Source: Mytilus galloprovincialis
Lineage: Eukaryota; Mollusca; Bivalvia; Mytilida; Mytilidae
Length of the DNA: 64,000 nt
Assembly: GCF_965363235.1 (NCBI RefSeq)
Contig: NC_134851.1
Location: 41,072,321-41,136,320 of the forward strand
Reading direction: 5' to 3'
Numbering within the stretch: the first letter of the stretch is position 1; every line of letters starts with the position of its first letter. Below the pieces are notes generated by a model. It was not told where the DNA came from and did no database searches. It saw only the letters and a program-made list of their open reading frames with translations. This document shows positions 28,129 through 64,000 of this stretch, in pieces. Made by a program: the position numbers and the translations under genes.

Positions 28129-28129
28129 T

Positions 28130-28710: not shown

Positions 28711-28715
28711 TTATA

Positions 28716-28869: not shown

Positions 28870-29470
28870 TTATAATTCTTCAGCCAAACATACGCGATTA
28901 TTAATTTACATTATTACTTTGATGGCTACTATATGTACCATCAGAAGCACAATGGCATGTCGTAACCAAGGAGTACGCCGCCATCTTGACTTTCTAAAAA
29001 TTTAAATGTTCTATAAATGCAACAGAATCTAAAATGAACTAGCACCTACCTCAAAAACTTCATTTTGATTAGATACTATCCGAATTTGAAGCGTACAAGT
29101 AACGAAATAATCTTCCGTCTGGAAGTTTTCAATCGTATGACGCCGTGTTTTGCCATGACGTAAATTCGCCAAATTATTCGTGAAATTTCCCGGAATTTTA
29201 TTCAAATTTTATTTTTATACATTTTCGAAGCTCAAGTGCATGTATTTTATTTCTTCTTTTTTTTATTATTATATATGCATTAGAATAGAAACAACTGTTA
29301 TGCAATTGTTTTATAATCTCAACTTGCTGAAGATCCCAGTACCCCTGCAAGAATGTGTATCGCGCATGAATAGCTTACAAAAGTAGTTTCGGAAACATGG
29401 TTTATCGAAGTGTAAACCAAGAGAAAAATTCTACTTGACCAATGCAATTCAAGTATTTATAGATATTCAA
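28870..29470. other. Copy A-specific DNA beside the TRIM stop
   Basis: Not present in copies B or C at this position. No recognised family or gene. Confidence 0.5.
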
Positions 29471-29482
29471 ATGATATAAGAA

Positions 29483-32643: not shown

Positions 32644-32651
32644 AAACTCAA

Positions 32652-33655: not shown

Positions 33656-33659
33656 AGAC

Positions 33660-36970: not shown

Positions 36971-37725
36971 AGAAACTGATGCAGGCTTGATATGTTCCTG
37001 TGCAATTTGCAGCCGAGCAGGAGATACATCATAGCGGTGTCTGGAACAGGCAGTGCTTATGTTCTGCTCCGTTAAGACTATGAATGAACAAGTCCATCTT
37101 TTCAGGAGAACATCACTGCCGACCAGTATCCGACAAAGATCGGCACCCTCACCTTCAGTTAGACTTCATTATTAGAGGAGTAAATCATTAGATTGGACGT
37201 GACACATTTTATTTCAATAAAAATTATGTTTGCTGTGGTATTTTTCCAATTTATTACTTGCAGTTTAATCTTCATAAAGGAATTGTATGTTATTTTGCTA
37301 TCATTTGCAAAATGGTTGTTTAACAGTCTATTCACTTTTTTAGTGTAATTGGCTTAAGAGGTTTCAATTGTTTAATAATGGAGAAAATTACATCTAGACA
37401 TATTAAGGGGTGATAACTATAATTGATTGTTTTTAAATTCAAAAGAATTGAGAACGTTTTACGTGTAATCAACACCTCCTTTCGTGTTCGAACTGGTTTC
37501 TTGATAGAAATTAGTTAAAAACCATCCACTGTCCTGACAGCGAATCGGTATTACATATTGAGAATTCCGATTGAACTTAGCATTGTTAGATTTTTGTTTT
37601 AACTCTCGAAAGGTATGTCTTTTGGTATAGCCTTATGAATCCTGACCATTAACTTGTCATTTTAAGGAGTATCATCAATTGACCTAGAGTTCCCAACCGT
37701 TCCCAGCCTTTCAAATGCATCCTGA

Positions 37726-37751
37726 CTTTTTTTTTTTTTTTTTTTTTTTTC
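37726..37751. repeat. Poly-T run
   Basis: About 24 T followed by CATTTAGCAACCAACAATCA, the inverse of the start of repeat R. Confidence 0.7.
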
Positions 37752-38154
37752 ATTTAGCAACCAACAATCAATCAATCAATTATTTTTTTGTTTTTTCGGA
37801 GGGGGTGTAGAGTTTGTGTTGCTCAATCTGTAATTTCCCATGTAGTGTGTAGTGTTTTGTGTTTATAAATTATCCGTCTCCTCGTCTTTTATTGTTTGTC
37901 CATTGAGAAGTCTGTCTTTCTTTAACATATAGTATTTCATTCGCACTATGGTATCCCCCCTCTTTTATTATTTCTGTTCTTCTGGTATCAAAAAGAGAAT
38001 TTCACGAAAGAGAAAGGCGAACGTGACCAAACGGGAAATGAAAAACTCACAAGTCAAAGACAACGGACAACGCAAATTCAAAATACGAAATATGACAAAA
38101 GACAAACAACATTTTACTTAAACACATTTATGTTAGGTAAAACAAATTCAATTT

Positions 38155-38545
38155 AAGCAATAACATAACTGAATATTAAATAAACACAATGTTAAACACT
38201 ACCGAACTTTTAAAATATCAAACAGACGCTTCTCGATAATACAGAACTATAAATTAAATAAACGCAGTTTTTGATATAGCAGAACTATAAATTAAACAGA
38301 CGCAGTGCTCAACATTACAGAACTAGAAATTAAACAGACGCAGTGCTCAACATTACAGAATTATAAATTAATCAGACGCAGTGCTCAACATTACAGAACT
38401 ATAAATTTAACAGACGCAATGCTCAACCTAAGAGAACTATACATTAAACAGATGCAGTGCTCAACATTACAGAACTATATATTAAACAGACGCAGTGCTC
38501 AACATTACAGAACTATAGATTAAACAGACGCAGTTCTCGATATTC
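38155..38545. repeat. 38-bp minisatellite, expanded in copy C
   Basis: Seven regular units at 38-bp spacing (starting near 38,297) with CAGACGCAGTGCTCAACATT, preceded by about three degenerate units. Copies A and B have two to three. Confidence 0.9.
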
Positions 38546-38812
38546 CGTTCGTCCGTTCTTCCGTCTGTTCCGCTTCAGATTATAGTTTTGGTTAAAGTTT
38601 TGGTTAAAAACCAAAAAACAATTTTGGAGGTACTTTTTTATGAAGTTGAAGTTTAATCAACTTGACACTTGGTACACATGTTCCCTATGATATGATATTT
38701 CTACTTTTAATGCGAAATTAGAGATTTTCCCCCTTTTTCACGGTCAACTGCACATAGAAAATAATAGTGCGTATGGGGCATCCGTGTACTGGGGACACAT
38801 TCTTGTTTCTAA
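38545..38812 (+). mobile_element. CGTCCG-type element, partial
   Basis: 5'-truncated counterpart of 27,771-28,128, ending GGGGCATCCGTGTACTGGGG. Confidence 0.7.
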
Positions 38813-39379
38813 TTGTTGAAGGCCATTCGGTAACTTATACATTACTCTCCGCTAAATAGATGAAAGAATAAAAAAAAAAAACATTGGTTTTGAAAAGTCA
38901 GCCTTTTGTCTTTATTTTTAACAACTGGTACTATTTTAATTTGTTTAGTTTCAATGAGGAAACATTCAGGTATTTTTTTTTTTTAAATATTTGATCTAAT
39001 TGTAGAAGTCTCAAGTTACTGATTCACAATTCGGTCTTTTATGAACTAAAATAGAATGTGTGAACGAAATATGCATACCCATCTTTACATTGTTCTTCTC
39101 TTCCTCTTTGAACAAATTTGAAAAGTTACTTCCGACTAGTACAAAAAACCATATCAATATATGTTTCTAGATTTTTTAATGTGTTATTATTTATTATAAA
39201 AAGTTTCCTATTCATTACACTTCATAACTTAATAGGTATTGTATCACTCTCGGTATGGTTCAACAGTTTAATCTGAAAAAGTTTCAAGCAAAAGCAACAT
39301 TAGAAAACTTGGTTATATAAACCAATTTGTCATTAAGATATAAAAACTTATTGTTTATATTTCGGCTAATCACCAATTC

Positions 39380-40911
39380 TCACATTTTAGTGTTCATTAG
39401 CCAGTGTTCATATGTGCATTGGGTTTTGAAAATATTGATAGATCTACGATAGTTCTTTACGACTAATAGTTCTTTTGTTTCATTGTTGTAAGATAAACCG
39501 GTCGGTCGATCGATGCTATCGTCTGCTGAAAAGACAATGTCACGTTTCTGTCCATCATTATATATTTTATATATGTTGTTTGATGTATATCCTGCTACAT
39601 ACACATCCCCACGGTCATCTACGGCTACACCATAACAACCGGCCAGGTCAGGACTGCTGCATATTTCACGTTCTTTTCCATCCGAAGAAACTAAAAATAC
39701 TTCATTACTGGCTATGTCAGTACAATATACATCCCCATCTTGATTGGCACATATATCATAAGGATCAAATGTTGTTTGTAATACTTTAAGAACTTTACCA
39801 TTGATATCCACAATTGTTATAGTATTTTATTGATTTTTTACCCATATCTTATCCTTCACACTGGTGATTCCACTACAGCTTCCTTCAATTTTAATTCTCT
39901 TATCAGGCTTCAATCATGTGAGGTCGATGATCTGGATATCTGCACCACCTACAGCTACTACAGCATAGTTTTTGTCATATAAACTTATATTTTGTGGTGC
40001 ATAATCCAATTCAATCCTTATGGAATTCGATCCATCAAGTTTACAAACAAAAAGTTGTTTCTCCCTGTACCTACAGAGAGTAACCTATCATCAGATATAA
40101 AGCATCCTCTAGTGATACCTACTTCATTTCCTAATTTTGTGGTCTGGAATGAATATATCAGCGACAACTTTATTTCATCTCTAACGAGAAAATGATATTG
40201 TTTGTCTATATTTAGTACAGGTTTTGGTACTTGGACATTTTCTACCGTTATTGTACCCAAGTCTGGGACTAGTTTTTTAATTTTCGACTGAGATTCTGAC
40301 GGAAAAAAATTTAGTATCGGAACAGTAGCTGCTTCGATTTCTCTGATTTCTTATTCTTTCTGGTAAATTTTTGCATCGAGAAATTTTACCAACTTGAATA
40401 AAAGAACTTCTGATGTGTGTTGCTTCAGTGAATTTTGATCACTTTTCCATGTAGACAGCGAGTCTGCGCTGGATTGTATGCTATTTCTGTTTCGGGACAC
40501 ACTCTCAGTACCATTTTTATACTTAAAATCAATATCTTTATGTATCTCTGCTTCTAACGTATCTAAATAGGCCGAAATAGTGGTACCATCTTTTACGCCT
40601 CTATCAGCTTTTTCAGTTGAAATGATAGACTTGCAATTCTGATGTGATACCGGAACACATAACACGCAGACTACCTTGTCATGTTGACAGCAGTACAGTG
40701 CAATCTTTTGATCTGGATGATTGTCGCAGTTCTAGGACAATGTAAGAAGTGAAGAACTCAGTTGTTGTATCTCTTGCGTTGGTATTACCTTGTGAGTCGT
40801 GGACATTCTTTGGTGAACTCTAGAACACGCCTTACATACAAACTCACAGCAGTCACTGCAACAAGATACAGCTGTAATGTGACAACCAGCACAGAATGTA
40901 TTGTCAGCCAT
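39380..40911 (-). pseudogene. TRIM-like B-box/NHL gene, copy C, broken
   Basis: Paralogue of the genes at 29,483 and 62,152. The splice acceptor before the ATG and the MADNTFC start (40,911) are retained. Lesions: loss of several residues between the first and second zinc ligands of B-box 1; a TAG for the lysine before B-box 2 (40,734-40,732); an in-frame loss of about 46 codons from the coiled coil (near 40,566); a TAA after KIYQKE (40,353-40,351); a frameshift near 40,060; further stops near 39,830. The last third is open again to a stop 12 codons beyond the usual end. Non-functional as a full-length TRIM. Confidence 0.9.
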
Positions 40912-41006
40912 TCTGTACGAATAGAAAAACATGGGATCTGCAGTAAAGATTTTCACTAAAACAATGAAAATTTTTTGCGGCCTTCTTTGACCTCATGTGG
41001 TCTGTA

Positions 41007-41655
41007 AAGAGTTTTTGGTTAAATTTCGAAATGAGAATGGAAATGGGGAATGTGTCAAAAAGACAACAACCCGATAATTGAACAGACAACAGTAAAAGGT
41101 CACCAACATGTCTTCAATGCAGCGAGAAATTCCTGCATCCGGAGGCGTATTTCAGCTGGCCCCTAAACACATGTATATACTACTTCAGTGATAATGAACG
41201 CCATACTGAACTCCAAATAGTACACAAGAAACTAAAATTTCAAATAATACAAGACTAACAAAGACCAGAGTCTCCTGACTTGGGACAGGCGCAAAATTGC
41301 GGCGGGGTTAAACATATTTATGAGATCTCAACCTTCCCCGTATACCTCTAGCCAATGCAGAAAAGTAAACTCATAACAATACGCACATTTAAATTCAGTT
41401 CAAGAGAAGTCCGAGCTGGACATAGATAGATATAGGAAGGTTTGGTATGAGTGCCAATGAGACAACTCTCCATTCAAATAACTATTTATAAAAGTAAACC
41501 ATTATAAGTCAAGGTACGGTATAGATAGAAGTTATCAAAGGTACCAGGATTATAAGTTAGTACGCCAGACGCGCGTTTCGTCTACATAAGACTCATCATC
41601 GACGCTCATGTCAAAATATTTATAAAGCCAAACAAGTAAAAATTTGAAGAGCATA
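41007..41655. repeat. Three dispersed repeats inserted 5' of the TRIM pseudogene
   Basis: Absent from A (near 31,218) and B (near 63,902). 41,030-41,410 carries CCGGAGGCGTATTTCAGCTG and GACTTGGGACAGGCGCAAAA. 41,430-41,520 carries GAGTGCCAATGAGACAACTC. 41,535-41,650 is the 3' end of the 366-bp repeat in inverse orientation, with CCAGACGCGCGTTTCGTCTA. Confidence 0.7.
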
Positions 41656-43649
41656 GACATACATAGACATAGACGGTATTTTATCTTATTGCATTTATCA
41701 AAAGAAACGATATCAAAAAAAAATTATCCTTTAAAAGCGAGAGTGTTTTCTCTGACCTGTCTCAACTCCTTATCAGATATAAACTTCAGAAAAAAAAAGA
41801 AATTTTATATCTATAAGTTTTTCTTTTCAAGAAAAAAAAAGAAATCAAGAATGAGGCTAAAAACTAAATGTTACACAATTACAGTACATCAAGTTCTCCA
41901 CGTTAAATAAGACAACTGGATGATAGTTTGTGACACTACATAATATATTTCACATTATAAAGAGTGTAAATCTTTTGAATAAATAAAATATCATATACTA
42001 CAGTTGGAATAAATAGACGAGTAAGAATGTCTTAAATAATTTAAGAAAATTGGAAAGAAGATAGTACGGAAATATAATAACATGAATAATGTTATCTTAA
42101 TATCGTAAGAAAACTTCAAATAGTGCAAATAATGATCTCAAGTAAGAATACAAAAATCGCAATGTAGAGGGGAGTCTCTGCATAAGCGTCTTTGGTCCAG
42201 AGAAATATCAGGAATATTGTAAAAAAACAGCATCGATTCGTATTCAGAGAAAAATACTGTCACTTTTGATTTAAATTAACAGTTTCTATTAAAAAAAAAT
42301 CAAAGTGAAAATTGCTATATGAACACAGCTTTAGTGTTTGAGTGTTCATCATATGTCCCCATTTCTTTTCATCATAATGCAGAAAAAAATAACGTATTTC
42401 TTGATAATGTCCGTATATTCCAAAGAAGGGCGAAAGATACCATGCAGAGAAACTTTCAAACTCGTAGATAGAAAATAAACAGACAACACCGTGGCTAAAA
42501 AACAAAACGAAATCCAAACAATTCAGTATCTCAATTAAATATAAAAACACCTCAAAATTCCTTTGCATGTAGTTTTCAAAAAATGTTATATGTTATTTTA
42601 AAAATAGTGGTTTGACATCTACTATAATTAACCTTGGTTACCGACGTAAACAAACCATTTGTATTGTCATCGTTATCATTAAAGTTTTACATTTCTATTT
42701 TGGAGACAAGTATGATTGTTAGATTAAACTTACCTGGCAAGTTTGTTTAAAACAAAAACTGTGTCTTTTGTTTTTTATCAACCGAGGTAACTTAAATTTA
42801 CTTTCGTTTTCAGTGGAAATTCCCATTCAATTAACAATGACTAAAGGGAGATCATTTAAATGTTCCAAAGGTGATTCGACTGAATCGGCGCGTAAATTTA
42901 AATCGCATTCGTATTTATGTTGATAAAAAGAATAAGATATTGTAAGACCGCGTAGCTAACCAATTTGTGTTTACAATAGTAGATTGGTCATAACAAAAGT
43001 GTTGTCCCTAATATAGTTGCCTTTATTGTTACACAGCATACTGTTTAGCGGGTTAGTGTTCAGAGCTGGGTATAGGGCGTATATCTACCCGAAACATGTG
43101 AAAAAAGGGAACTATGTTATTTATTGCAATAGAATTAAATTTATCAAAGGCTTTGTATTAATTACCTCACAAATCTTTAATAAACAATGAGTCCATTGAA
43201 ATGGGGCGGGGAAACATTCACGGCTGGTTAAGAGCGGTGTATAGCGCGCACATCTACCCAAAATATATGAAAAGAAAAGGGAACTAATTTATTAAAAAAT
43301 CAATCTACGTTTATCTTCGATAAAATAAGTAGTGTATAAAAGGACATTAAATTCCTGGATTACTGTGCATTGATACCGGTGCCAGGAAACCAAGCTTTAT
43401 CTGAAATGATGTGAAAGTCTGAACAATAAAGTCGTTCAGTCATGTTCACTTCGCTTGAAATTATTCCAGTACTAATAAGATGCTCTTCAGACAATTAATT
43501 ATGATGTTGATGTATACTAGTACACAAAGAAGGTAACTGAAAAGTATTGACATAGACTGAACCGTGCTTAAAATACCTCAAGGAAATTGAAAGTTTTACA
43601 ATTACTAAAGGGTAGACCTTGGTTCATGACCCAGATAATGCATATTTGT

Positions 43650-47999: not shown

Positions 48000-49365
48000 C
48001 AAAATGTAAGACAAGAACTATATCTGTGATAGTCTCAAACAATGAAAGGTGTAAATATGTCATTACGTCAAGCTCTGAGTTGTCCGAGTCTATACAAGAA
48101 AACATTTAAAACTACGTATTAAGGAGCTACCGTTTGTATTACTGGGAGAGGGGATGGTGGGGCTTGGATAAAAAAAAAATTGTCCTGCATTTGTTTAGTT
48201 GTAATCTCTGTCCTGCGTTTTAATTTATCACTCTATTTGGTCTAGTTTTTTAGTATAGTTTTCTGATTTGTTTACATAACATGACACCCTGCCTTATTTT
48301 TTCTCAAAAATCATGTCCTGCCTTTTTTCTCTCATCCTAACTCCCCCTCCTCCACCTTTGAAAACCAAATGCTAGCTATCTAATGCAAAAGAAGATGAGT
48401 TAGACCACCCACATGGATATTTCAGACACCCGAATGTTCTTCATATTAAAATATTTGTCCTCTCACTCTCGAATCGCAACATGCTTAATATATTACATAG
48501 TCATATGTTCATTTCTGAAAGAGAAAATTTTTGCCTCCCTTGACTGACTGCAATCTTGTATGGGGAATAATGTATATAGGCAATCCTTTTGTTTTAATGT
48601 CTATGTTTCGTGGATTTTACATCAACAATGAAATACTGTGGATACCTTATTATTCGTGGGATACCATTTTTCGTGCATTTCGTTGGTGTGGGTGACACCA
48701 TGAAACGAAATTTTCAACCAATGACAGATTTCCTATAGGCTTGTATGCAAACTTTGGCAAAACCACGAAATTAGATATTCATGTAAATGTAAGGTGTCCT
48801 AAATCCACGAAAATAAATGATTCCGAAGTATTGTGAATCAAATGCCATTTTAACGTTCATCCAATCTGATGTTAAATAAAAGGGCTTGTTTTCTTCATTA
48901 TAGGATTTTACTCAACTCACAAATAACAACCTAATAAATGAAAACTTTCACAATCGCAATGAGAACCACTTCGTTCATTTTGAACACATGAACATTTTCA
49001 TTTTTTTGTAAACAGACTACAACTTACACCCTAAGTAAATTAGTATCTAGGTGCCTGTACAAGTCACCCTATACCATTTGGTTTCAGGTTTAAACTTTAG
49101 AATATAAAAAAGGGCAATATTTGAACGCTTTTCTTTGGTATATTGTTTTTTCTTTATAGTAGTGCATTAGGTTTTTCAAATGCCAGTTTCCACTTTGTTA
49201 ATTACACATATGAATGAAATATATCATTTCGATTGTTTTTGTGAAATTTGATAAAAGGCCAGATAATTAAGTAAGGGATATAAGCCAATAACAGTTTATT
49301 ATTTTCAATATTATACAGAATGGATTGTTAGATGCTTATATCTTACTTAAAGCATTGTTTAACAC
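48000..49365. other. Duplicated non-coding DNA with dispersed repeats
   Basis: Aligns with 13,117-15,680 minus the 885-bp TIR element. 48,605-48,835 is the TTCGTGGATT repeat. No gene recognised. Confidence 0.5.
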
Positions 49366-49369
49366 GTCG

Positions 49370-49482
49370 AAATAGGTAAAACAAAAGAAAAAGCAAGGAA
49401 AGACTGAAATAGGTAAAACAACAGAAAAGGCAAGGAAAGACTGAAATAGGTAAAACAAAAGCAAACGCAAGGAAAGACTTAT
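49370..49482. repeat. 37-bp tandem triplication
   Basis: Three units of GAAATAGGTAAAACAA plus GCAAGGAAAGACT. Copy A has one (15,680-15,715). Confidence 0.85.
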
Positions 49483-49839
49483 TTTCATCAAGTATGAAAA
49501 TTGTTTTGTGAATAAACTATCTTTACATTAAAAATATCCTACAAGTTGGTCCCTTTAAACAGTAGCTCAACTCAAAACAATAGAAAAAAAGAAAGTACAG
49601 CTGTGGTAAACAACATGTATTGCCACCTGAAGAATAAGACACAATCTATGCGTATCATGAGTTTTGCGTGCTCAAGGACTTCTCATATTCTCCGTTTAAA
49701 GTTTCCGTCAATAACTTTACATGCGTTTTGTGTTTCAAAATGGGTAAAATGATGAAAATATATTCTTAAAGCAAAAACGAAGAAAGAGATGTCGTTATTA
49801 GTGATTTTGTCTCTTCTTCTCGTCTTCACTCTTACATCC

Positions 49840-50130
49840 TCGCTCTCTCTCAGCCAGCCTCATATTCTCTCATCCCCACACTCCCACTCTCCCACTCTCG
49901 CTACCCCTCCCTCCCACTCTCGCGCAATCTCTCGCTTTCTCCCACTATCGCTCTCTACCAATCTCGCTCTCTCCCACTCTCGCTCTCTCGCAGTATCACT
50001 CTGTCCCACTCAAACACTCTAACACTCTCATATTTTGGCTCACTAGCTCTGTACCACTCTCCTAATTTTTTGCTCTCTAGCTTTGTCCCACTCTCTCCCA
50101 CTCTCGCTTCCTCACAATCTCTGTTGCCTA
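49840..50130. repeat. CT-rich low-complexity tract (copy B)
   Basis: Same CTCTCCCACTCTCGC composition as 16,040-16,420, shorter. Not coding. Confidence 0.8.
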
Positions 50131-51204
50131 CCTACTCTTTGGTTCCCTTCTTAGAATCTGATGTAATGGATATGTCCTTGCACAATTAACAGCCAAACAA
50201 GAGATACATAATAGCGGTGTCTGGTACAGGCAGTGCTTATGTTCTGCTCCGTCAAGACTTTGAATGAACAAGTCCCTCTAATCAGGAGAACACCGCTGCC
50301 TACCTGTATCCGATCGGCATCTCACCTTCAGTTAAACTTCATTAGGAGAGGAGCTAAACATTACATTGGACGTGAAACATTTTATATCTATACAAATTTT
50401 GTATGCTGTGGTATTTTTCCAATTAATTCCTTGCAGTTTAACCTTCATAAAGGATCTGAATAATATTTTGCTATAATTTGTAAAATGGTTGTTAACCATT
50501 CTATTCACCTTTTGAGTGTAATTGGCTTAAGATGTCTCAATTGTTTAATAATTTAGAAAATTACAACTAGACATATTAAGGGGTGATAACTATAATTGAT
50601 TTATTTTTTATTTCAAATGAATTGAGAACGTGTTACGTGTAATCAACCTCTCCTACCGGGTTCGAACTGGTTCCTTGATAGAAATTAGTCAAAAACCATC
50701 CACTGTCCTGACAGCTAATCGGTCTTTCATAGTGATAATGTCTTCCGATTGGACTTAGTTTGCTAGATGTTTGTTAAAATCTCGACAGGCCAATAGAATG
50801 TATGTCATTTCGTATGGCCATATGAATCCTAATTGGTAACTTGTCATTTTAATGAGTGTCATCAATTGACCTAGAGTTCCCAACCGTTCACAAACCTTTC
50901 CATAGCAGCTGATCATGAGTTCATCCCTGTTTTTTTTGTTTTGTTTTGTTTTGTTGTGTTGTTTTTATTTGTTTTTTTTTTTTTGGGGGGGGGGGGAGTT
51001 ATTTACGATGTTGTTTGTAGTGCTTTGTCGACAATTATGTGTCTCCTCGTCTTAAGACTGTTATTGTTTGTCTACGTAGAAGTCTGTCTTTCGTCAACAT
51101 ATTCATCATCTAATATTGTATTTGCACTATGGTACATGTGTTTCCCCCCTTTATCGTCATTTATGTTCTTCTGGTATAATGATAAAAAAAAGCAGAACTT
51201 TTAA

Positions 51205-51290
51205 TCAAACAGACGCAGTACTCAATATTACAGAACCATATATTAAACAGACGCATTATTCAACATTACAGAACAGACGCAATCAATGCT
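51205..51290. repeat. 38-bp minisatellite, short allele (copy B)
   Basis: Two to three units with CAGACGCAG and TTACAGAACC, as at 17,533. Confidence 0.7.
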
Positions 51291-51410
51291 AAACATAATA
51301 CAACTAAAGAAACAAACAAAACACTTTCAATTTTAATGTCTTTAATAATTTTGAGTCCCAATACAGAACGATCTTATTGGTGATTGATTTAAAACCTATC
51401 ATCCTTCTAC

Positions 51411-51450
51411 ATCAAACTGTGGCTTCATCACTTTTTACCACAGTTTTCAT
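51411..51450 (-). promoter_or_regulatory. SECIS element of the selenoprotein gene
   Basis: On the minus strand: core ATGA, a 9-bp stem AAACTGTGG with CCACAGTTT, a 15-nt apical loop opening TAAAAAGTG that supplies the conserved unpaired adenines 10 nt after the core, then the 3' TGAT. Below the core, after an internal loop, CTATCAT (51,460s) pairs with ATGATAG (51,390s), giving helix 1. It lies about 680 nt past the stop codon, with ATTAAA poly(A) signals 65-80 nt further on. This fits the eukaryotic SECIS consensus bound by SBP2. Confidence 0.88.
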
Positions 51451-51643
51451 TTATTGATAACATGATAGCTTTAAAAAATGAAAAATATGAACGGTGTACT
51501 GGACTTTTTAATGAACATTTCATAAATTTTACTTTCAGCTTTAATGACGAATATTTTCGTCTTGCTCAGATTTTAAACTAAATCTAGTTTTGTATAATGT
51601 AGTGGTTGTTCCTTAAATTTATCGCCAACTTATTTCTCTACTA

Positions 51644-51842
51644 CTGTAAATTTAGAAATTATTGCGTGCATTTATTATTGCGATTTTGTCATTTTAGACT
51701 TAAATGCGATTTTAATTTTCACGATTTTGAGAAAAATCCTGTTAAATTCATATAAAATATTTCAAAATGCGACTTTAAATTTCACTACTCAGTCGCATTT
51801 TTCGCAATAATAAAAACCACGCATTAATTTCTGAATTTACAG
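51644..51842. mobile_element. TA-flanked MITE in the selenoprotein 3' UTR
   Basis: 199 bp, inverted ends CTGTAAATTTAGAAATTATT and its near-inverse, flanked by TA. Copy A has the empty site (near 17,977). It sits between the stop codon and the SECIS. Confidence 0.88.
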
Positions 51843-52127
51843 TATAATTAACTGAATATTTTTTTAAGGTAAAGATATTCACGGATAAATTGATATTTTA
51901 TTTTTTTCCTATTTTTGTCTACTTTATTTTAAAATACTATTTTATCATTTATCAAAATAATTTATTTCCCCATAACCTTCAACTAATTTATTTAAAACAC
52001 AATTATTGCCTTGTATCGTAAAGTTTCAGTTTAGCATAAAAAGATTAAAATATTCAATTTCCTGTTGTTGTTTTTTTTTATTAAGAATTCCACTTTTTTA
52101 TGTCCGTCTTTTTAATCACATCCCGGT

Positions 52128-55100
52128 TTAACAAATGACACAACTAGCTTTCCTGCACGTTGATAATTCTTTTGGTTCCATGCCACGATCAGCTTGCCGT
52201 ATAACCTCAATCAGCTGAAAAATAAAAAAATTATAAGTCGTATTTCAGCAATTTATTGATAAAGAGAGGCACACATGTCAAAGGGATATTCAATCTTAAA
52301 AGTCAAAAACAAACTATAACCATACTATGGCAAAACAACAACACAAAGACCGTACACAAAACATTTTAACATAGAAAAAAAAGACAGCAAGAACTCCATA
52401 AAAAACGGAGGGGATCTCATTCTTGTGCTCTGAAATGATGGTTTCGTCCTGCTCAATGTCCGACTACCGTAACTGAGGTTTTTTTTGTTGCTTTATTCAA
52501 ATTGCAATAAGGTGCACTCGACTCCAATTCTAACTGACTAGGATTGCCAGTTTTTCTATCGAAGGTCGGTGGGTTTTTTTGCGGACACTCTGGCTTTCTC
52601 CACAAATAAAAACTGGCCTCCACAAAATAGCCAAGTGGTGCTTAAAAGTGGTGTTAAAACACAGAAAATGAAATCAAATTGCAATGCATGCATCAGTTGA
52701 ATGGTTTATATCATCTCACCTACAATCTTTATAAACTAATATCTACTTGTTAATTGTTCAGCTACCGTTCAACTGTTTGTGTATAGACTGGTGGATATGT
52801 TTAAAGAGGGAACGTTACTTGTGAAACGAAAAGCAACCTTGAATAACTGCCGCTATGCGTCTTCTTTGTATGCACATAATGTATTTAGTCACGTTTTTCT
52901 ATGTGTGACAATTTTTTCGTCTGTGGCCTTCTAATCGGTCTATTCCTATAGGAGACAGTGACCATTGAAATCCATTTATTTTCTGTGACAATCAAAATTA
53001 TTTCTGGTTGTTTTTTTGCTATCCCATCCACTTATATGTCCATGGCTAACAAGTATCACTTAAGCTAGCTTAGTAAATCGGGAATTGGAATGAAAAAGAC
53101 TGTATATGGCCAAGTGCCTAAAATCTTCAGTAATCTACAGGACATTTGCAAGTGGAGCAGGATTTGCTTACTCTTCCGAAGCGCCTGCGACCATCCCGGT
53201 TATTGCATGTATTCGTGTTGCTCGGTTTTCGGTTTTCTCTGTTGTGAATAACAAGTACTGTTAGTCTCACTCTATTCATCGTTTTTCGTTATTGAATATC
53301 TCTTGTATATTTTGACTCTCTTTTACATGACTTTAGTTCCTAATTCTATCGGTTTACCTATATTCAGTTTTTTATTTATATCTAAGGCCACCAAATATTT
53401 TAATCATACGGACCAGTGAAGTCCAACGCTAAAGATTATTTAACACAAACTTGGACTACTAAACATGATAAAAGAAATCTAACTTACATCCTCTTCGATT
53501 GGCCAACCTTTCAACTTCAGTTTAGAAAAAACCTCTTTATCATTGATCGTAATTTCAAATGCAGCTTAAGAAAAATATATATATATATGTATCATGTGTA
53601 TAAATATAGAGTATTACATTGATACACGACGTGAGTTATCGGATTTATCCAATCGTGATACATGTAGATAAATTATCAAATTTAAAGTCCTCTCCGAGGC
53701 TCGGACTGAAAAATTTATAATAAAACTATCGAGATTTGATAAATCCGATAATCCACACTTTACTATCTTATGCTAAGTTTCTCTTATGATTAAAAGATAA
53801 AATTTCTAAACTAAAAATCCCCTTCGAGTGCCTTGTACTTTCCACGAAGTTGTCAATTGCTATTAGAACATTTTGATAATATCAGGTAGCTGAGAAAGGT
53901 TGTGACCATTTCACTCGGCCAATCATCATCTGAGATCACAGGCAACAATACATTGATTAAATTGTTTTGTACAATGGTTCCGAAAGGGATATATTTCCAT
54001 AGAATTAGAGGGATAAGATGTGTTATGTTTGCCAGTGAAACTCCTCTCCACCAGAGACTAAGGTAACTGACATAAAATTCGAGGTTTACAATTATAGGTC
54101 ACAATACAGCCTTCAGACAATGAATAAAACCCATATACTACATAGTTATCTATAAACAGGCCAATAGATGGCAAACGTATAAACATTCAAGCGTGAAAAT
54201 TAAACTTACTATAGGGTTATTTTCAAGACAATGAACGAAAAACCCAATATGATATACTGCATTATATTGAAGTTATGGGTACAGATGATAGTAAATTAAT
54301 TCTAAAAATCCTTCGCTATTCATCTTACTCAATATTTCTCTTTGATCTCTCTCGAAGATGAGGGTCGTTTTCCCTGGCATTTATTTCAAACTTTAATTCG
54401 GATTATAATATTGTCATTTATAGAATAACAAATTATTTTCCCTTAGGATTTCTATCTTTTCATTTGAAACAAATAAATTATGATATGTGGGAAAAAGTAT
54501 AAAATTACATCTATCAGGAACCGCTTCTATTTTAAAAGACACAAGTTCTTATTGTCTTTTGTTTGAAAATGTTTGATAAACTAATTCGAAAAGTACAAGA
54601 AAGGGATAAATATTTAAAAATGCTTCAAAAACTAGAAAGAAAATTGCACTTGTCTTGTTATAGGATGTACAAGTACGCTGCCAGTTACGTCTGGTTGGAA
54701 AACGAAGATTATCTGTTATTTATAATATTCGACCAAAATTGCAAAATTGATTGATTGATTGTTGGTTGCTTAACGTTCAGTAGCAAATATTTCATGCATA
54801 TTCAGGACGAAAACAAGTTCACAATAAATACAATAGGTAGGTCTTGTCACAAGAGAGGCCATCTGGGATGATGGTCGGGGAAATTTGGACTGCCACTGGA
54901 AAATGAGGGTATACTGGATAGGGACAGAAATTTTGCCTTGCAACAGGCCACCTACGGACCCCTCAAAGAGTTGTTGCAAGGGTTCGAAACGTGCAAATAC
55001 TGTGGCACTCTCTTTACACGAGGCATCCGATGCAAAATTGCAAAACATTTGATAATTGATCTAATACTTAATTCATGTACTTCCAAGATAAACTTGAAAT

Positions 55101-58100
55101 ATTTGTCAATGGACAACAAGAAATTTTGTCGTCAACAAATAATGTAAAACGGTATCGGTTCTTATTTTGTACTGTTACACCAATGTCCCAGGTTAGGGAG
55201 AGGGTTGAGTGCTCATAAACATGATTCATTTTTTTACATAAATAAGGCCGTTAGTTTTCTCGTTTGAATTGTTTTACATTGTCATTTCGGGGTTGACTAT
55301 GCGGTATGGGCTTTGCTCATTGTTGAAGGCCGTACGATGACTTATAGTTGTTAATTTCTGTGTCATTTTGGTCTCATGTTGACAGTTGTCTCATCGGCAA
55401 CCATACCACATCTTCTTTTTGATATTAACCCCGTTATAATGTTCAAGTGCATGTCACAAGCCAGCAGTTTCCGGTTCAGCGGTTGTTGTTGGTTGGTTTC
55501 TGTATTTTATAGTTTACGTCGTTATCATTCTAGTTTACAGTAAGTTTATTATGTCTGCACCAACGGAATATCTCGTCTCGCAAAAAAAAAAAAGATAAAG
55601 GAGAACGCCTTTAAGCAATTTGTTTACATCTACAAGTATTTATCAATATTTGACAGAACAAAACCGAAAATATCAAGACACCTTTTGTGTAAAATTCCAA
55701 GGTTTGTTGCTTAGGTCTAGGATTTTGTCTTGCACTTCACATCTCCGGATATTGCATTATTGTAAATCTAAGGTAAAGTGAAACCTTTCTGAACCCAACC
55801 GCTTCGGGACTTGAGATTGTGTTCGGTTCTGGTAAAAGTTTGGTTTTATAATCAGGTTCATTACAAATAAAACTTTATATGACTTGACTTAAAACATAGT
55901 CTGGTTAAGACAGGTTTCATTGTATATAATTTTTGTCATATATATTTTCCTATATTTCTATATTGTAAACTATACGTACTTCTGCGACCCTTTGACCCTA
56001 CGACGTCAGCACCAGGTACCTCGGCAAGGATGCGTCCACGAAGCGCCTCATACTTGCCTGCATAACCTCACCCGCTACTGTAAAATATATGAAATGAGAT
56101 GTTAACATACATGTTTTCATAAGTATTTTTAAAATGGAGATACAAAAATCTCATTGTTGTCAGTGCATAAAGTTAATGAATAACATAAGGAAATCATTAC
56201 TTTTTTAATCAAAAAAAAAAACTGGCAATACTTTTATATGCATTCGCAAAATATTACTTCCTTGCATTGTTTTCAGGATAAATTTAAGATTAGGAATCAT
56301 AAATCAAATTAAATAAGAATTAGAAAATAAAGATATTTTATAGATGACACTTAAAGTAACAGCACTGCATTTTCCATAAATATGTGGTTCATTTCAATGA
56401 ACGATTGATTGACCAGTGGCAAATATTTCGTGCATGTTCAGGACGAAAGTAAATTACCAATGAATAAGTCATGTAGTATATGCGAATCGCGATGAAATGC
56501 GGGACATTTGGACTTCCACTGGAACAAGAGGGTGTTCTTGTAACCAACTTATTTTCGCGGATACTTTTTTTTTCGCGTTGAGATCTTTCAAGTTCACAAC
56601 GCAACGGTTTAATTTGACGATTTTCAAACTACTTGATGAAGCCAAATAATGAAAGATCCTTTTTTTACATATTCGCGGCGATTAATATACGAGTAACGAT
56701 TTTACTGACGAACGTCAGGAGAATAAATCGCTAGCTGAAATTATTTGGTTACTGTATTGGATAGAGACATCAATTCAGCCACGCAACAGGCTACCTTAGG
56801 GTCCCTCAGAGTTGTAAAACGGTTCATACTATATACAAGAGCCAGCGGATTTAACTTTTCAAGATCTTTCAATTATTTCTGCTTTACTGCCGGGTGAAGA
56901 TTGCTAAAATTATTATCAATTTAAGCACTTATTGGCTATTTCGTAGCATCCAGCTGTTTTAATAAGGAGGACAAAAGGGGGGGGGGGTAAATTGAAGAGC
57001 ACAAACGATCCTCACCATAAAATCCTTGCCGATATAAATTGGAATCGAAAACATCTGCCATGTGCGGATTCACAACCTGAGTGTTCACAGCCTAGTGGTA
57101 TAGCTTCTAGACCACTTGGTCACCACGATGCCTGATTGTCGGGAGAAGACACAGATATGACAACATGTCTTAACCCCCCCCCTTATGGTGTTCTTATGTC
57201 GAATGAAAATAGAAATTTAAAATAAAAAATATAGAATTATTTCCCATTCAGGTTTTATTTGTAAAAATTAAAAAAATATGTATAATTGTTTCAAATACTG
57301 AAAATATTTTATAGACTAAACTTTAAGTTCTGCATTTTCTATTTAAATCAGTATGTACTAGATATAAGAAGATGAGGTATGAGTGCCAATGAGACAACTC
57401 TATATCCAAGTCACTATTTGTAAAAGTAGCCCATTTTAATGAATTATTGATTAATATATTTTTACGTCCAGTAGCAAATAGTTCATGTATGTTTTGAACG
57501 AAGACAAGTTTATACATGTTATAATGCTTTAGAATAGTGATATAGGTTGATCGGGATAATAAAAATGCGAAAAATTCGGACGGCCACTGGAACAAGAGGA
57601 TATATTTGGATAGAATCAAAATTGAGCCTTGCAATAGGCCCCCAGCAGTTCTACAGTTTCATAACGTGCAGAGAGCGATGCACTATCTATACACGAGGCA
57701 TCGGATTTTCAATTCCCCATAAAAAGGGGATGCTGTTGTCGCTTTACTGCAGGTCGGAAGATCGATTAATTGATTGTAACCCTGAGAGTGTTCTCATGTC
57801 GGGAAACATATAAATTTAAAATATAAAATATAGAATTACTTCCTATTCAGGTATTTTTTGTGAAATTAAAACTTGCTGTGTCATGATTATCTGAATAATC
57901 CTTTATATGTTCACAGACCATTTTATAATAGATTCTATAATATGTGTTTAATGTATTATATACCTTTAAAAATTACTTAATTAGAAAAGAAGTCTAGGTC
58001 ATGCATTATATATCGATATTTATGAAAGTTTTCCATTTGTATATGCTTGTACTTAACACACAAGCCAGATTCGCTATTGATTTTATGATAAATTGATATT

Positions 58101-58745
58101 TAAGGTAAACATGGTAAACGACTTAAATTTGATAAATAATAATGTTTTTAAAATGTACATAGAATTATTAGAAAATGGAAACGGGTAATGTTTCAAGGAA
58201 ACAACAGATGCCGCACTTATTTCCGAAACATAGAAATGAATACTCGCATTGATACTATACTTGTTGCTTAATCAAAATAGTAACACACACTTCTTTCTTT
58301 ATTTATTCAAAAGATACCATTACATAAGCTCTGACATGTTTATCAGTGGTACATTTTGACCTATCAGACGATTTCTTTAAGTATAAACATAATTTTACAT
58401 GTATTTTTAGAAATGGGACCTACATAATTATATGTTTTAGACCAACATAATTATAGATTCAATGCCAGGTATTATGCACATTGCTTTTTCATTTATCTGT
58501 ATAAAGGAAGGGAATTATTTTCTATAAAAACTTGGTCAATAACAATAAGGACATATTTGCGTTTGACGTTTAGCAAACACCAATCAATCGATCTACCTAA
58601 ACTAAATTGAAATTCACCTGAAACTATTTGAATGAAAAAATCAATATCACAGCTGAATCCGTTTAATTTAAAAAAAATCTTAAAACAATAGATGTGAATA
58701 AAAAACAATAACATACCAGTACTCTACGTGAACTTTGACGCCCAT
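52128..58745 (-). CDS. Selenoprotein W/MIEN1-like (Rdx family), 4 exons, Sec-containing
   Basis: Coding exons on the minus strand: 58,745-58,717, 56,077-55,980, 53,564-53,488, 52,214-52,128 (29, 98, 77 and 87 bp). Every junction has GT/AG and the phases join exactly (TG|T, A|CT, GAT|CTG). The 96-residue product starts MGVKVHVEYC, then SG-Sec-GY, giving the CxxU redox motif at Cys10-Sec13 with UGA at 56,070-56,068. It continues KYEALRGRILAEVPGAD, AFEITINDKEVFSKL, GWPIEEDLIEVIRQADRG and ends CVIC, a CaaX box. The fold is thioredoxin-like. FEIxIN, FSKL and LIExIRxA match human MIEN1 (C35/Rdx12), whose own motif is CxxC and whose end is CVIL; SELENOW shares CxxU. A SECIS follows at 51,411-51,450. 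Known roles of the family are redox signalling and, for prenylated MIEN1, membrane-linked cell migration; the role here is inferred. Confidence 0.93.
52235..52950. repeat. Dispersed repeats inserted in intron 3 (copy B only)
   Basis: 52,250-52,470 is a diverged inverse of the CATTGTCAGTTTG module. 52,490-52,680 carries GCGGACACTCTGGCTTTCTC and AAATAAAAACTGGCCTCCAC, a repeat common in molluscs from memory. Copy A goes straight from exon 4 acceptor to the shared intron (near 18,470). Confidence 0.65.
53145..53335. repeat. Dispersed GAGCAGGATTTGCTTAC repeat
   Basis: Paralogue of 18,715-18,935. Confidence 0.6.
53610..53970. repeat. Single arm of the nested palindrome
   Basis: Matches the left arm at 19,207-19,600, including the inner TTATCGGATTTATCC / GATAAATCCGATAA pair. 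The facing right arm is missing and the shared flank (AAAGGGATATATTTCCATAG) follows directly. Confidence 0.8.
54750..55048 (+). repeat. Dispersed repeat R, copy B
   Basis: Paralogue of 20,760-21,060. It retains AATACAATAGGTAGGTCTTG and TTTACACGAGGCATCCGATG. Confidence 0.7.
55245..55430 (+). repeat. Dispersed repeat, TTGCTCATTGTTGAAGGCC
   Basis: Paralogue of 21,720-21,910. Confidence 0.7.
56405..56835 (+). repeat. Repeat R split by a TIR MITE, copy B
   Basis: MITE 56,541-56,751 with TAACCAACTTATTTTCGCGG at one end, as in copy A. Confidence 0.7.
57055..57132 (-). repeat. tRNA-derived SINE-like head, copy B
   Basis: A-box-like GTGACCAAGTGGTCTAGAAG and B-box-like GGTTGTGAATCCGC on the minus strand. 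Paralogue of 23,521-23,594. Confidence 0.45.
57455..57700 (+). repeat. Repeat R, diverged copy
   Basis: Paralogue of 23,920-24,190. Confidence 0.6.
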
Positions 58746-59131
58746 CTTTATTTTTTCTTTTTAGTTTTCCTGATACACAGATCCTCCTGTGATAGTTGTG
58801 GTTATACTTATAACAGGTATAATACAGGTAGATAGTTTGATAAAAATGCTTCGTCATATACTGATTAAATATAGTTGATACAGATCTAAATATGTGACTT
58901 ATATTTACATAGAAATTATCACAATTCGACCTTGTCGCGGATAGTAATTTTTATTAAGTTGATAATTTTGATTGGTTTATAAATTCGATAGTAATATTTG
59001 CATTTTAATCTTAACGAAATTTTGATTACTTTTTCTTGCAAGTATTGAAGATGTATAATTAGAAATAATTATTCAAAAATAGCATTCAAAATTGACAATT
59101 TCACTCTTCAATAGACTCATTATTTTCATAT

Positions 59132-60552
59132 AAATCCCCAGTCCCACTAGACCACGATTGCACCACGCTCACCGCGATCTAAAATAAATTTAGATCGTGG
59201 TGAGGTCGCGGTATGAGCGGCATGAAAATGTAAATTTTCGTTGCTTTCACGATGCCACTACGTCCTCATTACGCTTCTACAACGATCCCGCTACGATTAT
59301 ACCATGTTCTCACCGCGCTTAATCTGCGACCTTACTACGCTTATCAAGATCTTTCTACGCTCGTCACGTTATCACTACGACCATACCACGAGTTATCCGA
59401 TTGCAACACGATCTTAATGCGATTATATCACGTTCTTCCCACGATTATACTACGTTCATACCGCGATCGTACTACGTTCTCAGCAATAACATCAACATCG
59501 TGTTCCATGTTAAAAATATAATACAGTTCCATTCCTTCTATTTCTGATTAATACGTAGATTTCTCGGAAACAATACAGTCATGCCACCAAAATCTACTAG
59601 AACACGTGGGCGTGGTGGCAGGGGTTGATGTAGAGGCAGAGGGAGCTAAGTAACGAATCCTAATCAAGCAGAGATGTCGGACCGTCCAATCCAACCTAAA
59701 TTACAACCTATTTCATAAAGCTCAAATGACCATATGTTAGTGAACGATAGCAGAGATGACACAGATGTGTCAATAGATATAGAAAGTTGTGGTATGAGTG
59801 CCAATGAGACAACTCTCTATTCAAGTAACAGTTTATAAAAGTAAACCATTCTCGTCCAAGGTACGGCCTTCAACATGGAGCCTTCGGTCACACCGAAAAG
59901 CACGTTATAAAGGGCCCAAAAAAATACTAGTGTAAATCTATTTAAACGGGAAAACAAACGGTCTAATCTATATAAAAAAAGAGAAGCATGGTTGAGCCGT
60001 TAGAGCAAATGGATAATAACATTCAGACAAACAAAATGTAGGGAATTTTTTTTATATATTTCATGTAAAACATGAAAATGAGAATGATGGTCGTAGTGTG
60101 AACGTAGTCAGGTCGTGGGAAGAGCGTGATGAGCACGGCAAGGGCGTGCTACAATCGTACTATGGTCGTGAACAGCGTTGTATAGTTGTAGTGGAAACGT
60201 ACTTGGGTCGTGGTGAGAACGTGATGGTCGTAGTGAGGTCGTGATAACGTCGCTGTGAGATCGTAGTGCAATCAAAATAGAATCATGCTTTCGCTACGAT
60301 TGTACAGCGACATTTGCGATCTTACTACGATCTTAGTGCGCTCACACTACGCTTCTACTACGACCTGATTTGCCACGACCGCACCACGATTGTTTTGAAC
60401 ATGTTCAAAGATGGCCACGATCTTCAAGATATTGAAGACCTCACCACGATCGTGATACGACCTTACTGCGATCTACTCGATCCTACTACGATCATTAAAA
60501 TTTGCATTTTTTTCACAGATCGTAGTGCGATCGTGGCGTAGTGGGACTGCGG
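59132..60552. mobile_element. 1.42-kb TIR element with dense subterminal motif arrays
   Basis: Ends are CAGTCCCACTA (59,139) and TAGTGGGACTG (60,549). TAT flanks both sides, and copy A reads uninterrupted TTTTCATATTACCGAC (near 25,691). About 360 bp at the left and 470 bp at the right are packed with CTACGATC/CCACGATC-like 8-mers on both strands. The interior has a short MPPKSTRTRGRGGRG start that stops at once, perhaps a remnant of an element gene, and carries a nested dispersed repeat (59,785-59,990). Superfamily unassigned. Confidence 0.85.
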
Positions 60553-60849
60553 TATTACCGACTTTTGACATTAGACTGTTTAACATTTCAACAAGTTACT
60601 TTCGCTGTGGTTGGACATCCTGGTACTCGGCCAAGTAAGGGCTACCTAAAGAAGTGAACTCAAATACATACTTTTTATGTTGCTCTTACTTGAAAGTGTA
60701 CCAGAACGTGCAACTGGCAAAGTCTGTTACCTGTCTAAAAGATATGAACTGCGGAGTCATAAATCTGTATTATAACGCAAAAAATAGTCTTTATTTGTCA
60801 ATATTTAGAAAAAGTTTGAAAAGATATAAAATGTAATTACTTTGTGAGA

Positions 60850-61340
60850 CAGGTGCGCATTATGCCTGCAGTAAAATTATTAGTGGCGCTCTGATAAAAT
60901 GTTTTCTTTTAAAAGGATGGGTACTCTGCTTATGATTGCAGTTCCTTACAATAATTTTATCCCTCAAAATGAGATCGCCACGACTTTTACTATATTTTAC
61001 TATTGACTACTGGTTTCAAATAAAACTACTTTTTTATGTATCTCTCCTAAGTCAGGATCCTGTAATTCAGTGGTTGTCATTTATCTATGTCTGTCATATT
61101 TGTTTTTCTTGAGTGTTGTTTAACCATTGTGGTGACGTCAGCCTATTCATGTGCCGTGGATTCTTTTTCAAGAATCAACGCTTCCTAACTCAGTCGCTGA
61201 AATGAGCTCACCATGTTATATACATTGCTTCCTTTGTGTGCCTACTTTCATTAAGTTTGAATTGACTAATTTACTATTTCTGCTCACTAGTGGAATTGTT
61301 TTAATAACTTACCTATACATTTTGAAATTTCCATATGCCT
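60850..61340. other. Non-coding DNA between selenoprotein and TRIM genes
   Basis: 60,820-61,090 aligns with 27,430-27,665. Nothing recognised in the rest. Confidence 0.5.
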
Positions 61341-61430
61341 TCTCTGGGAATCGAACCCATCCATGAATTTTGTTATATGTTAATGATATCAACATTTCCA
61401 TGAAACCTCTGGGCTACCAATCGGTTACGA
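61340..61430 (-). repeat. tRNA-like SINE fragment
   Basis: Minus strand has A-box TAGCCCAGAGG and a perfect B-box GGTTCGATTCC, about 58 nt apart. The acceptor stem does not pair, so this is not a working tRNA gene. Confidence 0.45.
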
Positions 61431-62151
61431 TTTAAATGTCTAATTTTAATCATGTTAAGGAGTGTTATTTGCGAAAAATACCAGTCAAGAGAATGATAAA
61501 TTTCGCGAGCCGTAAGTCGAGGGAAATTCATTATAAAGACTAGGCCATTTATTGGTGCCTATACAGTATTCGTTTTTTCTTCAATTGTTGAACGCCAGTC
61601 GCTAACCTATACATTACATTCCGCTAAATAGATGAAAGAATAAAAAAAAAGTCAGCCTTTGTTCTCTTTTTCTAACCTCTGGTGATATATGTCTATGACA
61701 CGATTCAATGAGGAAACATCACTGACAGGTATTTTTTTTTTTTAAATATTTGATCTAATTATAGAACTCTCAAATTATTGACTCACAATTTTAGTCTTTC
61801 ATGAACTTAAATAGAATGTGTGACCGAAATATGCATACCCATCCTTTATAGTGCCGTTCAGTGTGCAAGTTTGAAAAGTAACTTCCGACTAGGACAAACA
61901 ACCTATCAATATATTTTTCTAGATTTTTGAAGTTGTCATTCTTTATTAAAAGTCTCATATTCATTACACTTCATATTTAAAAAGGTATTATATCACACTT
62001 GGCTAAATCTGAAACAGTGTCAAGTACAAGCAAAATTAGAAAATTTGGTTATATAAATCAATTTGTCATTAAGACACAAAAAAAAACTAATTGTTTATAT
62101 TTTGGCTTATCACACATTATTACAGTCATTTTAGTGTTCATTAGCAAGTGT

Positions 62152-63801
62152 TTATTGGGATTTATAAATATTGATAGAGTTTCCATATTCGTTTAAGACT
62201 AACAGTTCTTGTGTTGCAATGTTGTAAGATAAACCAATCGGTCCATAGATACCATCTTCTACTGACAAAACAATGTCATGTTTCTGTCCATCATTAGATA
62301 TTTTATGTATGTTGTTTGATATTTGCCCTGATACATACACATCCCCAAGGTCATCTACAGCTACACTATTAGCAGTTTTCAGATCAGGACTCTTGTACAT
62401 CGCACGTTCTTTTCCATCCGAAGAAACTACGAATACTTTATTACTATCCCAGTCAGTACAATAGACATCACCATCCTGATTGGCACAGATGTTTCTAGGA
62501 TCAAATGTAGTTTGTATTACTTTATGCACTTTACCATTGATATTCACAATGGTTAGAGTGTAAGGTTTATTTTTTACCCAGATCTTGTCGTTTACACTGG
62601 TGATTCCTTTACAGGTTCCTTCAACTCTTAGTATCCTGCCAGGCTGCAATGAGATCAGGTCGATGATCTGGATACCTGCTTCACCACCAGATACTACAGC
62701 ATGGGTTTTGTCATATAAGCTGCTATTGTGTGGTGTATAATCCAATTTAATCACGTTAAAGTTTGATCCATCAAGTTTACAAACAATAAGTTCCTTGCCC
62801 TTGTATTGACAGAGAAGTAACTTATCATCAGGAATACAGCATCCACTTAAGATATGTACTCCATTACCTAATTTCGTGGTCGGGAATGAATGTGTCAGTG
62901 ATAACTTTCCCTCGTCTTTCACTATAAATTGACCTTGTTGATCGATATCTAGTACAGGCATTTGGACTTGGACATTTTCAACCGTTATTGTACCCAAGTC
63001 TTGGACTAGGTTCTTAATTTTTGACTCAGATTCTGACGGATGATATTTAAGTATCGGAACAGTAGCTGTTTGGATTTCTCTGATTTCTAATTCTTTTTGG
63101 TAAGCTTTTGCATCTAGAAATTTTACCACCTGGAATAAATGAACTTCTGATGTATGTTGCTTCAGTGAATGTAGATCACTTTTCCATGTATACAGCGAGT
63201 CTGCACTGGATTGTATGCTATCTTTATTTCGGGACACACTCTCAGTACAATTTTCATACTTAGAATCAATATCTTTATGTATCTCTGCTTCCAACTTATC
63301 TAAATGCGCAATGACTTTCCGTTTGATTTCAGACACCCTTGTCTTTATTTTGGTTCGACTCTTTTCCAAATCTACAAGTGTTTTCTCACTTTGACTCCGT
63401 CTGTTCTCTGTAACTTGATATAGGTTTGAAATCCTTCTCTCTAGATCAGCAATAGCGGTACCATCTTTCACGCCTCTAGCAGCTTTTTCAATTGAAATGA
63501 TAGACTTGCAATTCTGATGTGATATCGGAACACATGACACGCAGACTACCTTGTCATGTTGACAGCAGTACAGTGCAATCTTTTGATCAGGATGATTGTC
63601 GCAGTTCTTGGACAATGTAAGAAGTGACGAACTCAGTTGCTGTATCTCTTGCGTTGGTAGTACCTTGTGAGGCGGGGACATCTTTTCGTGAACTCTGGAA
63701 CAAGCCTTGCATACAAGTTCACTGCAGTCACTGCACCAAGATACAGCTGTAATGTCTTCATCACTGCGCTGACAACCAGCACAGAATTTACTGTCCGCCA
63801 T
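62152..63801 (-). CDS. TRIM-like B-box/NHL protein, gene 2
   Basis: A 549-residue paralogue of the gene at 29,483-31,129 with the same start (MADSKFC), all sixteen B-box zinc ligands at the same positions (Cys7 to Cys98), coiled coil and C-terminal NHL-type propeller (VYCTDWDSNKVFVVSSDG, SVAVDDLGDVYVSG). No RING. The acceptor TTTTTTATTCTTACAG ends one base before the ATG. Its upstream frame differs from gene 1 by one T in that tract, which confirms that the upstream reading frame is intron and not protein. Most differences from gene 1 lie in the propeller, the likely ligand-binding part. The non-coding 5' exon is outside what can be recognised. Confidence 0.9.
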   Translation of the reverse strand: MADSKFCAGCQRSDEDITAVSWCSDCSELVCKACSRVHEKMSPPHKVLPTQEIQQLSSSLLTLSKNCDNHPDQKIALYCCQHDKVVCVSCVPISHQNCKSIISIEKAARGVKDGTAIADLERRISNLYQVTENRRSQSEKTLVDLEKSRTKIKTRVSEIKRKVIAHLDKLEAEIHKDIDSKYENCTESVSRNKDSIQSSADSLYTWKSDLHSLKQHTSEVHLFQVVKFLDAKAYQKELEIREIQTATVPILKYHPSESESKIKNLVQDLGTITVENVQVQMPVLDIDQQGQFIVKDEGKLSLTHSFPTTKLGNGVHILSGCCIPDDKLLLCQYKGKELIVCKLDGSNFNVIKLDYTPHNSSLYDKTHAVVSGGEAGIQIIDLISLQPGRILRVEGTCKGITSVNDKIWVKNKPYTLTIVNINGKVHKVIQTTFDPRNICANQDGDVYCTDWDSNKVFVVSSDGKERAMYKSPDLKTANSVAVDDLGDVYVSGQISNNIHKISNDGQKHDIVLSVEDGIYGPIGLSYNIATQELLVLNEYGNSINIYKSQ

Positions 63802-64000
63802 TCTGTAAGAATAAAAAACATAGCTTCTGCAGTAAAGATATTCACTAAAAGAATGAAAAGTGTTGCGGCCTTCTTTGACCACATATGGTCTGTAAAAATA
63901 TCAACATAGATAGAATGTTATCTTATTGCATTTTTCAGAAGAAAAGCTATAAAAACATTTTTATCCTTTTAAAGCGAGAGTGGTCACTCTGACCTGTCCA
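63802..64000. other. 5' intron/flank of TRIM-like gene 2
   Basis: Closely matches 31,130-31,322, including AAAGCGAGAGTG.TCACTCTGACC. Ends at the window edge. Confidence 0.6.

Follow-up and report, generated by a model that had tools for sequence, protein, structure and literature searches.

The window examined here is a stretch of 64,000 nucleotides from contig NC_134851.1 of Mytilus galloprovincialis. Its minus strand carries a four-exon gene, copy A, predicted to encode a selenoprotein of the Rdx family, with a UGA codon inside its reading frame and a hairpin resembling a selenocysteine insertion sequence (SECIS) in its 3′ untranslated region (UTR). A damaged tandem duplicate, copy B, lies on the same strand (Table 1). 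A sequence-only reading of the window had described four exons of 29, 98, 77 and 87 bp for copy A, and we found each at the coordinates claimed, separated by introns of 2639, 2415 and 1273 bp that all run from GT to AG (acceptor ends cag, aag and cag) and joined in perfect phase. The joined exons span 291 nt, which is 96 residues and a TAA stop. The UGA is the sole internal stop in the 96 codons and, as had been claimed, falls exactly at the U of a CxxU motif; there are no frameshifts and all three introns are intact. An in-frame TAA precedes the ATG with five codons intervening, so there is no in-frame start farther 5′ unless another exon exists. The gene had also been called hidden from scanning for open reading frames (ORFs). 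Indeed, 10 ORFs of 60 aa or more overlap positions 51400-58750 and, judged by their translations, not one of them reads any exon in its coding frame.

The protein searches used Cys in place of the UGA-encoded residue. In Pfam the product matched a single family, Rdx (PF10262; 57.2 bits against a cut-off of 22.6, E = 2e-15). Among the NCBIfam models it matched TIGR02174, CXXU_selWTH, which describes the SelT/SelW/SelH CxxU proteins (62.8 bits against a cut-off of 34.2), and it scored 38.8 bits with NF041051, under the cut-off of 88. With both PF10262 and TIGR02174 above their cut-offs, the Rdx/SelW/MIEN1 signatures named from sequence are borne out. In human MIEN1 the residue aligned with the UGA is the second Cys of the CxxC motif (CEPC).

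The same codon is TGA in more distant relatives. A genome scan across bacteria and archaea gave 250 pattern matches and 17 confirmed relatives, all bacterial, and the homologous codon was TGA in 17 of 17; this set is small, mostly from Bacillaceae and non-independent, and relatives without an AFE-type motif are undetectable by such a scan. The alignment behind the scan had Cys at the UGA residue, and one pattern required Cys there while the other pattern lay elsewhere, so TGA in the relatives was not built into the search. These bacterial SelW-like selenoprotein loci share with copy A the TGA codon and the AFE-type motif. They differ in that their match ends by query residue 82 of 96 and in having Asn after the TGA codon, where copy A has Gly. 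A second stop occurs farther downstream in 2 of the 17. SECIS rules differ in bacteria, and what the bacterial TGA shows is limited to the use of TGA at this codon in the wider family. The relatives come from Bacillaceae, Neomarinimicrobiota, one Tectomicrobia metagenome-assembled genome and one row labelled Chryseobacterium; the last and a Cytobacillus row are nearly identical, and it may be mislabelled or a contaminant. Among the viral contigs scanned, seven stretches fit a pattern and none was confirmed as a relative.

Downstream of the copy A stop we observe a hairpin whose core consists of AUGA (51450-51447), a 9-bp stem, a 15-nt loop opening with UAAAAA, and GA (51413-51412), above a 7-bp lower helix pairing 51468-51462 with 51402-51396. 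The 81-nt hairpin has a minimum free energy of -21.2 kcal/mol compared with -9.97 +/- 2.47 for shuffled sequences (z = -4.55, none of 200 as low). Including longer flanks gives z = -2.97, with 1 of 200 shuffles equally stable. A SECIS grammar applied to both strands of the window gave two matches, of which this hairpin is the better. In 2482 dinucleotide-shuffled windows the mean was 1.42 matches, with 32 in all scoring equal or better, yielding a chance rate of about 1e-4 per kb of one strand for a match as good. The grammar was devised after the candidate was known, with spacings drawn partly from general background; on that post hoc grammar the hairpin has the AUGA/GA core, stem and apical AA of a eukaryotic SECIS. 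The element also agrees with published descriptions, in which a kink-turn containing AUGA forms the core of the SECIS and an AAR motif lies at its apex, in the terminal loop for form 1 (PMC2746813, PMC8659212). The other grammar match, at 26338 on the minus strand, is weaker, has one mismatch and sits 5′ of copy B exon 1, outside any 3′ UTR recognized in the window; we took it as chance. Between the copy A stop and the hairpin stands an element resembling a miniature inverted-repeat transposable element (MITE), which is absent from copy B and has no other copy within the window.

A tblastn search of the window with the copy A protein revealed that all four exons recur on the same strand, each 33.5 to 34.4 kb away from its counterpart. 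The sequence-only reading had noted one selenoprotein gene and overlooked this second one, whose exons lie between 25244 and 18366. Copy B, a tandem duplicate, retains the UGA and is probably unable to make the full protein now, as its exon 3 is one base longer and its SECIS core is altered. The SECIS region of copy B still folds strongly (z = -4.08). In the GPX4 SECIS, however, deletion of the AUGA abolished SBP2 binding (PMC2746813), from which copy B is probably not recoded. It could instead be argued that copy B still functions, the extra T being a homopolymer assembly error and the AUAA core being active: the lesion is a length change in a T run, and a dN/dS (ratio of nonsynonymous to synonymous rates) near 0.1 for the pair suggests long constraint on both copies. 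We nevertheless consider a functional copy B unlikely, given two independent lesions, of frame and of SECIS core, in one copy and the effect of AUGA loss in GPX4.

Table 1. Coordinates of the copy A and copy B features in the 64-kb window.
Feature	Position	Strand	Description
Copy A exon 1	58745-58717	minus	29 bp; ATG start; MGVKVHVEYC, last codon split; donor CTG|gtatgt
Copy A exon 2	56077-55980	minus	98 bp; CSGU motif; acceptor end tttacag, donor GAA|gtacgt
In-frame UGA, predicted selenocysteine codon 13	56070-56068	minus	within CSGU, copy A exon 2
Copy A exon 3	53564-53488	minus	77 bp; donor GAT|gtaagt
Copy A exon 4	52214-52128	minus	87 bp including TAA stop; CVIC end, CaaX-like
MITE-like element	51842-51644	minus	about 200 bp; TA-flanked, terminal inverted repeats; between copy A stop and SECIS-like hairpin
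SECIS-like hairpin, 3′ UTR	51470-51391, core 51450-51411	minus	about 680 nt past stop; from fold and grammar scan
Copy B exon 1	25244-25216	minus	differs from copy A at 4 sites, each synonymous
Copy B exon 2	22565-22468	minus	UGA retained, 22558-22556
Copy B exon 3	19168-19091	minus	one extra T within a T run, causing a frameshift
Copy B exon 4	18452-18366	minus	tblastn match
Copy B SECIS region	17803-17716	minus	AUAA core in place of AUGA; stem C to T change (pair becomes G-U); 5-nt insert

The two copies allow a test of selection at the codon level. Identity between them is 86-98% in exons and 91-93% in the sampled parts of introns; because these values are alike, plain identity tells little and the codon pattern bears the argument. 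Over the whole frame we counted 11 synonymous and 5 nonsynonymous changes at 63.2 and 221.8 sites (dN/dS 0.115, Fisher p = 5e-5), and exons 1, 2 and 4 alone have 10 and 4 (p = 9.5e-5). The 12 codons before the UGA contain 5 synonymous changes and no nonsynonymous change, and the 80 codons after it contain 6 and 5 over 53.8 and 186.2 sites (dN/dS 0.23, p = 0.018), or 5 and 4 when exon 3 is left out (p = 0.037). Purifying selection between the copies is thus strong over the whole frame and modest past the UGA; the numbers are small, the test does not distinguish constraint on one copy from constraint on the other, and gene conversion may have acted. The synonymous excess past the UGA argues, with modest statistical support, that this part was read as protein. 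For the same part, the match to MIEN1 that reaches into the tail is a stronger argument than selection. The low overall dN/dS also suggests that the damage to copy B is recent.

In the PDB the top match to the copy A protein is human C17orf37/MIEN1 (2ljk; 65.2 bits, E = 5e-17, residues 2-95, tail included), followed by mouse SELENOW, or SelW1 (2npb; 24.9 bits, E = 2e-4, residues 2-67); two other chains with E > 1 were dismissed as chance. The comparison of the spliced product with SELENOW and MIEN1 that had been proposed as a check therefore favors MIEN1. When the part of MIEN1 that matched is compared with SelW it scores 27 bits, so MIEN1 lies farther from SelW than the copy A protein lies from MIEN1. 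Human MIEN1 resembles it in identity (44% over the matched stretch), in the match into the tail and in a CaaX end, CVIL in human and CVIC here, but has Cys for selenocysteine (Sec), 23 PDB-chain residues before the match and Phe in place of Trp63. Mouse SELENOW shares the Rdx family and a redox motif in the same place, with a lower score and a match that stops short of the CaaX tail. An orthologue of SELENOW rather than of the MIEN1/SelW2 type would account for the common family and motif and for an N-terminus that begins at the SelW start, without the MIEN1 extension. The identities over short stretches are also close, with 35% to the 69-residue SelW stretch. A tree of 16 bacterial and 3 animal rows, with very long branches and unsettled bootstrap values, did not join the copy A protein to MIEN1. 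Nonetheless, scores of 65 against 25 bits and a C-terminal match reaching CVI favor MIEN1, and we regard a SELENOW orthologue as quite improbable.

By its sequence, the gene is best filed as SelW2, the Sec form of MIEN1/Rdx12, a kind already known of which this would be a new member. The Rdx-family selenoprotein gene proposed earlier remains by far the best reading, refined from a generic SelW to a MIEN1/Rdx12-like protein. The SelW2 described in bony fish, frog and elephant shark is a selenoprotein whose Cys-containing relative in tetrapods is Rdx12, or MIEN1 (PMC3316567). SelW2 has also been reported from Schmidtea, Schistosoma japonicum and Trichoplax (PMC3828610); we liken copy A to these Sec-containing CxxU homologues of Rdx12 by their published description. 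A figure legend in PMC3828610 gives Lottia a SelW2_b, but the text names the pair SelW1, and on account of this conflict we do not count Lottia as a SelW2 bearer. Three SelW-type selenoproteins are tabulated for this mollusc (PMC3473315). No bivalve or mussel SelW2 was among the literature matches listed, which cover open-licence papers.

The family profiles, the UGA at the exact redox position, the SECIS-like hairpin and the codon-level selection all point to an Rdx-family selenoprotein, and we are highly confident that copy A works as an animal gene of the SelW2 type and that its UGA is recoded as Sec. Several observations weigh against this. The selection signal is largely upstream of the UGA and modest downstream, and the tree, which lacks resolution, does not join the protein to MIEN1. 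The Rfam SECIS models gave no match at gathering score over the window, nor any with E <= 10 in 51000-52300, in a search that had no positive control. Finally, of the 16 AATAAA/ATTAAA hexamers from 52127 to 50800, 10 lie before the SECIS, 1 inside and 5 after; a transcript ending at any of the first 10 would lack the SECIS. The hexamers at 51346 and 51337, which are followed by a TG-rich stretch, lie past the SECIS, and 3′ ends there would retain it in the message. The earlier claim of a SECIS at 51411-51450 holds for the core, stem and GA, which are rare by chance, and goes unsupported by the Rfam models. Four Rfam matches to other families in 51000-52300 (two sRNAs, a miRNA and a snoRNA; E 4 to 8.7) were taken as chance.

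If copy A were also a pseudogene, an ordinary nonsense mutation in a Cys codon would have produced the UGA, the hairpin would be a chance fold, and the damage in the adjacent copy B, the unmatched Rfam models and the just modestly significant selection past the UGA would all fit. We hold this to be very unlikely, because a single stop interrupts an otherwise unbroken frame of 96 codons with its introns intact, the UGA is common to both copies while later changes still favor synonymous sites, TGA occupies the same site in every bacterial relative found, and such a hairpin seldom arises by chance. An error of sequencing or assembly for TGT or TGC, making the gene a Cys-form MIEN1 with Cys where mammalian MIEN1 has it, is scarcely credible with TGA in two diverged copies and a SECIS-like element downstream.

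As a working SelW2-type gene, copy A would yield a spliced mRNA with the UGA at codon 13 within CSGU, and the form-1 SECIS about 680 nt past the stop would recruit a SECIS-binding protein and eEFSec for the ribosome to insert Sec. The known mollusc SECIS-binding protein, in Lottia, is of the SBP2L form (PMC2746813). The product would be a 96-residue thioredoxin-like oxidoreductase whose CVIC C-terminus is probably prenylated, providing anchorage on the cytosolic face of a membrane. There the CxxU pair would act on thiols of membrane-bound signalling proteins, reducing or sensing them, in line with the proposal for MIEN1, which has a thioredoxin-like fold, a redox potential of -225 mV and a redox motif proposed to face the membrane (PMC3527542). 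The sequence itself shows the exons, splice signals, family, UGA position, hairpin and coding selection between the copies; transcription, recoding, prenylation and redox function of copy A are what we infer.

Both copies lie within a large tandem duplication, 14284-31327 and 48310-63999, about 33-34 kb apart and with blocks of 78-96% identity, that takes in a B-box/NHL gene besides the selenoprotein gene. The B-box/NHL (TRIM-like) ORFs, of 576 aa each, are at 29483-31213 and 62152-63882 on the minus strand. A third, partial duplication unit is found around 36939-43571, and a 143-aa fragment with NHL-type matches at 39380-39811, minus strand. Elsewhere the window contains a tandem array (11453-13118) whose copies repeat about every 366 bp and are 97-98% identical, and a minisatellite of about 1 kb with a period of about 31 bp (32650-33661).

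The most interesting detail of the copy A protein is its CVIC end, which has the form of a CaaX motif, as in human MIEN1. A final Cys in such a motif suits farnesyltransferase better than geranylgeranyltransferase. Human MIEN1, which ends in CVIL, is geranylgeranylated (PMC6738349). A CaaX or prenyl end on SelW2 goes unmentioned in the main text of PMC3316567 and PMC3828610, the former of which proposes that Rdx12 derived from SelW2 before the amphibian split. There is perhaps an even chance that copy A encodes a prenylated, membrane-anchored selenoprotein, that the CaaX anchor predates both the vertebrates and the switch from Sec to Cys, that mammalian MIEN1 is what remains, after conversion to Cys, of an ancient membrane selenoprotein, and that copy B is a selenoprotein gene dying by loss of its SECIS core and frame.

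Selenoprotein genes are prone to misannotation, with 11% annotated right in Ensembl, 5% in GenBank and 77% in RefSeq in a vertebrate survey (PMC12822975), and this locus supplies exact coordinates for one. The damaged copy B offers a natural control for the role of the SECIS core, and this twin and the CaaX end on the Sec form are testable points. If the reading is true, a Sec protein with a CaaX end in an apparent invertebrate would imply that it was the membrane anchor that arose first.

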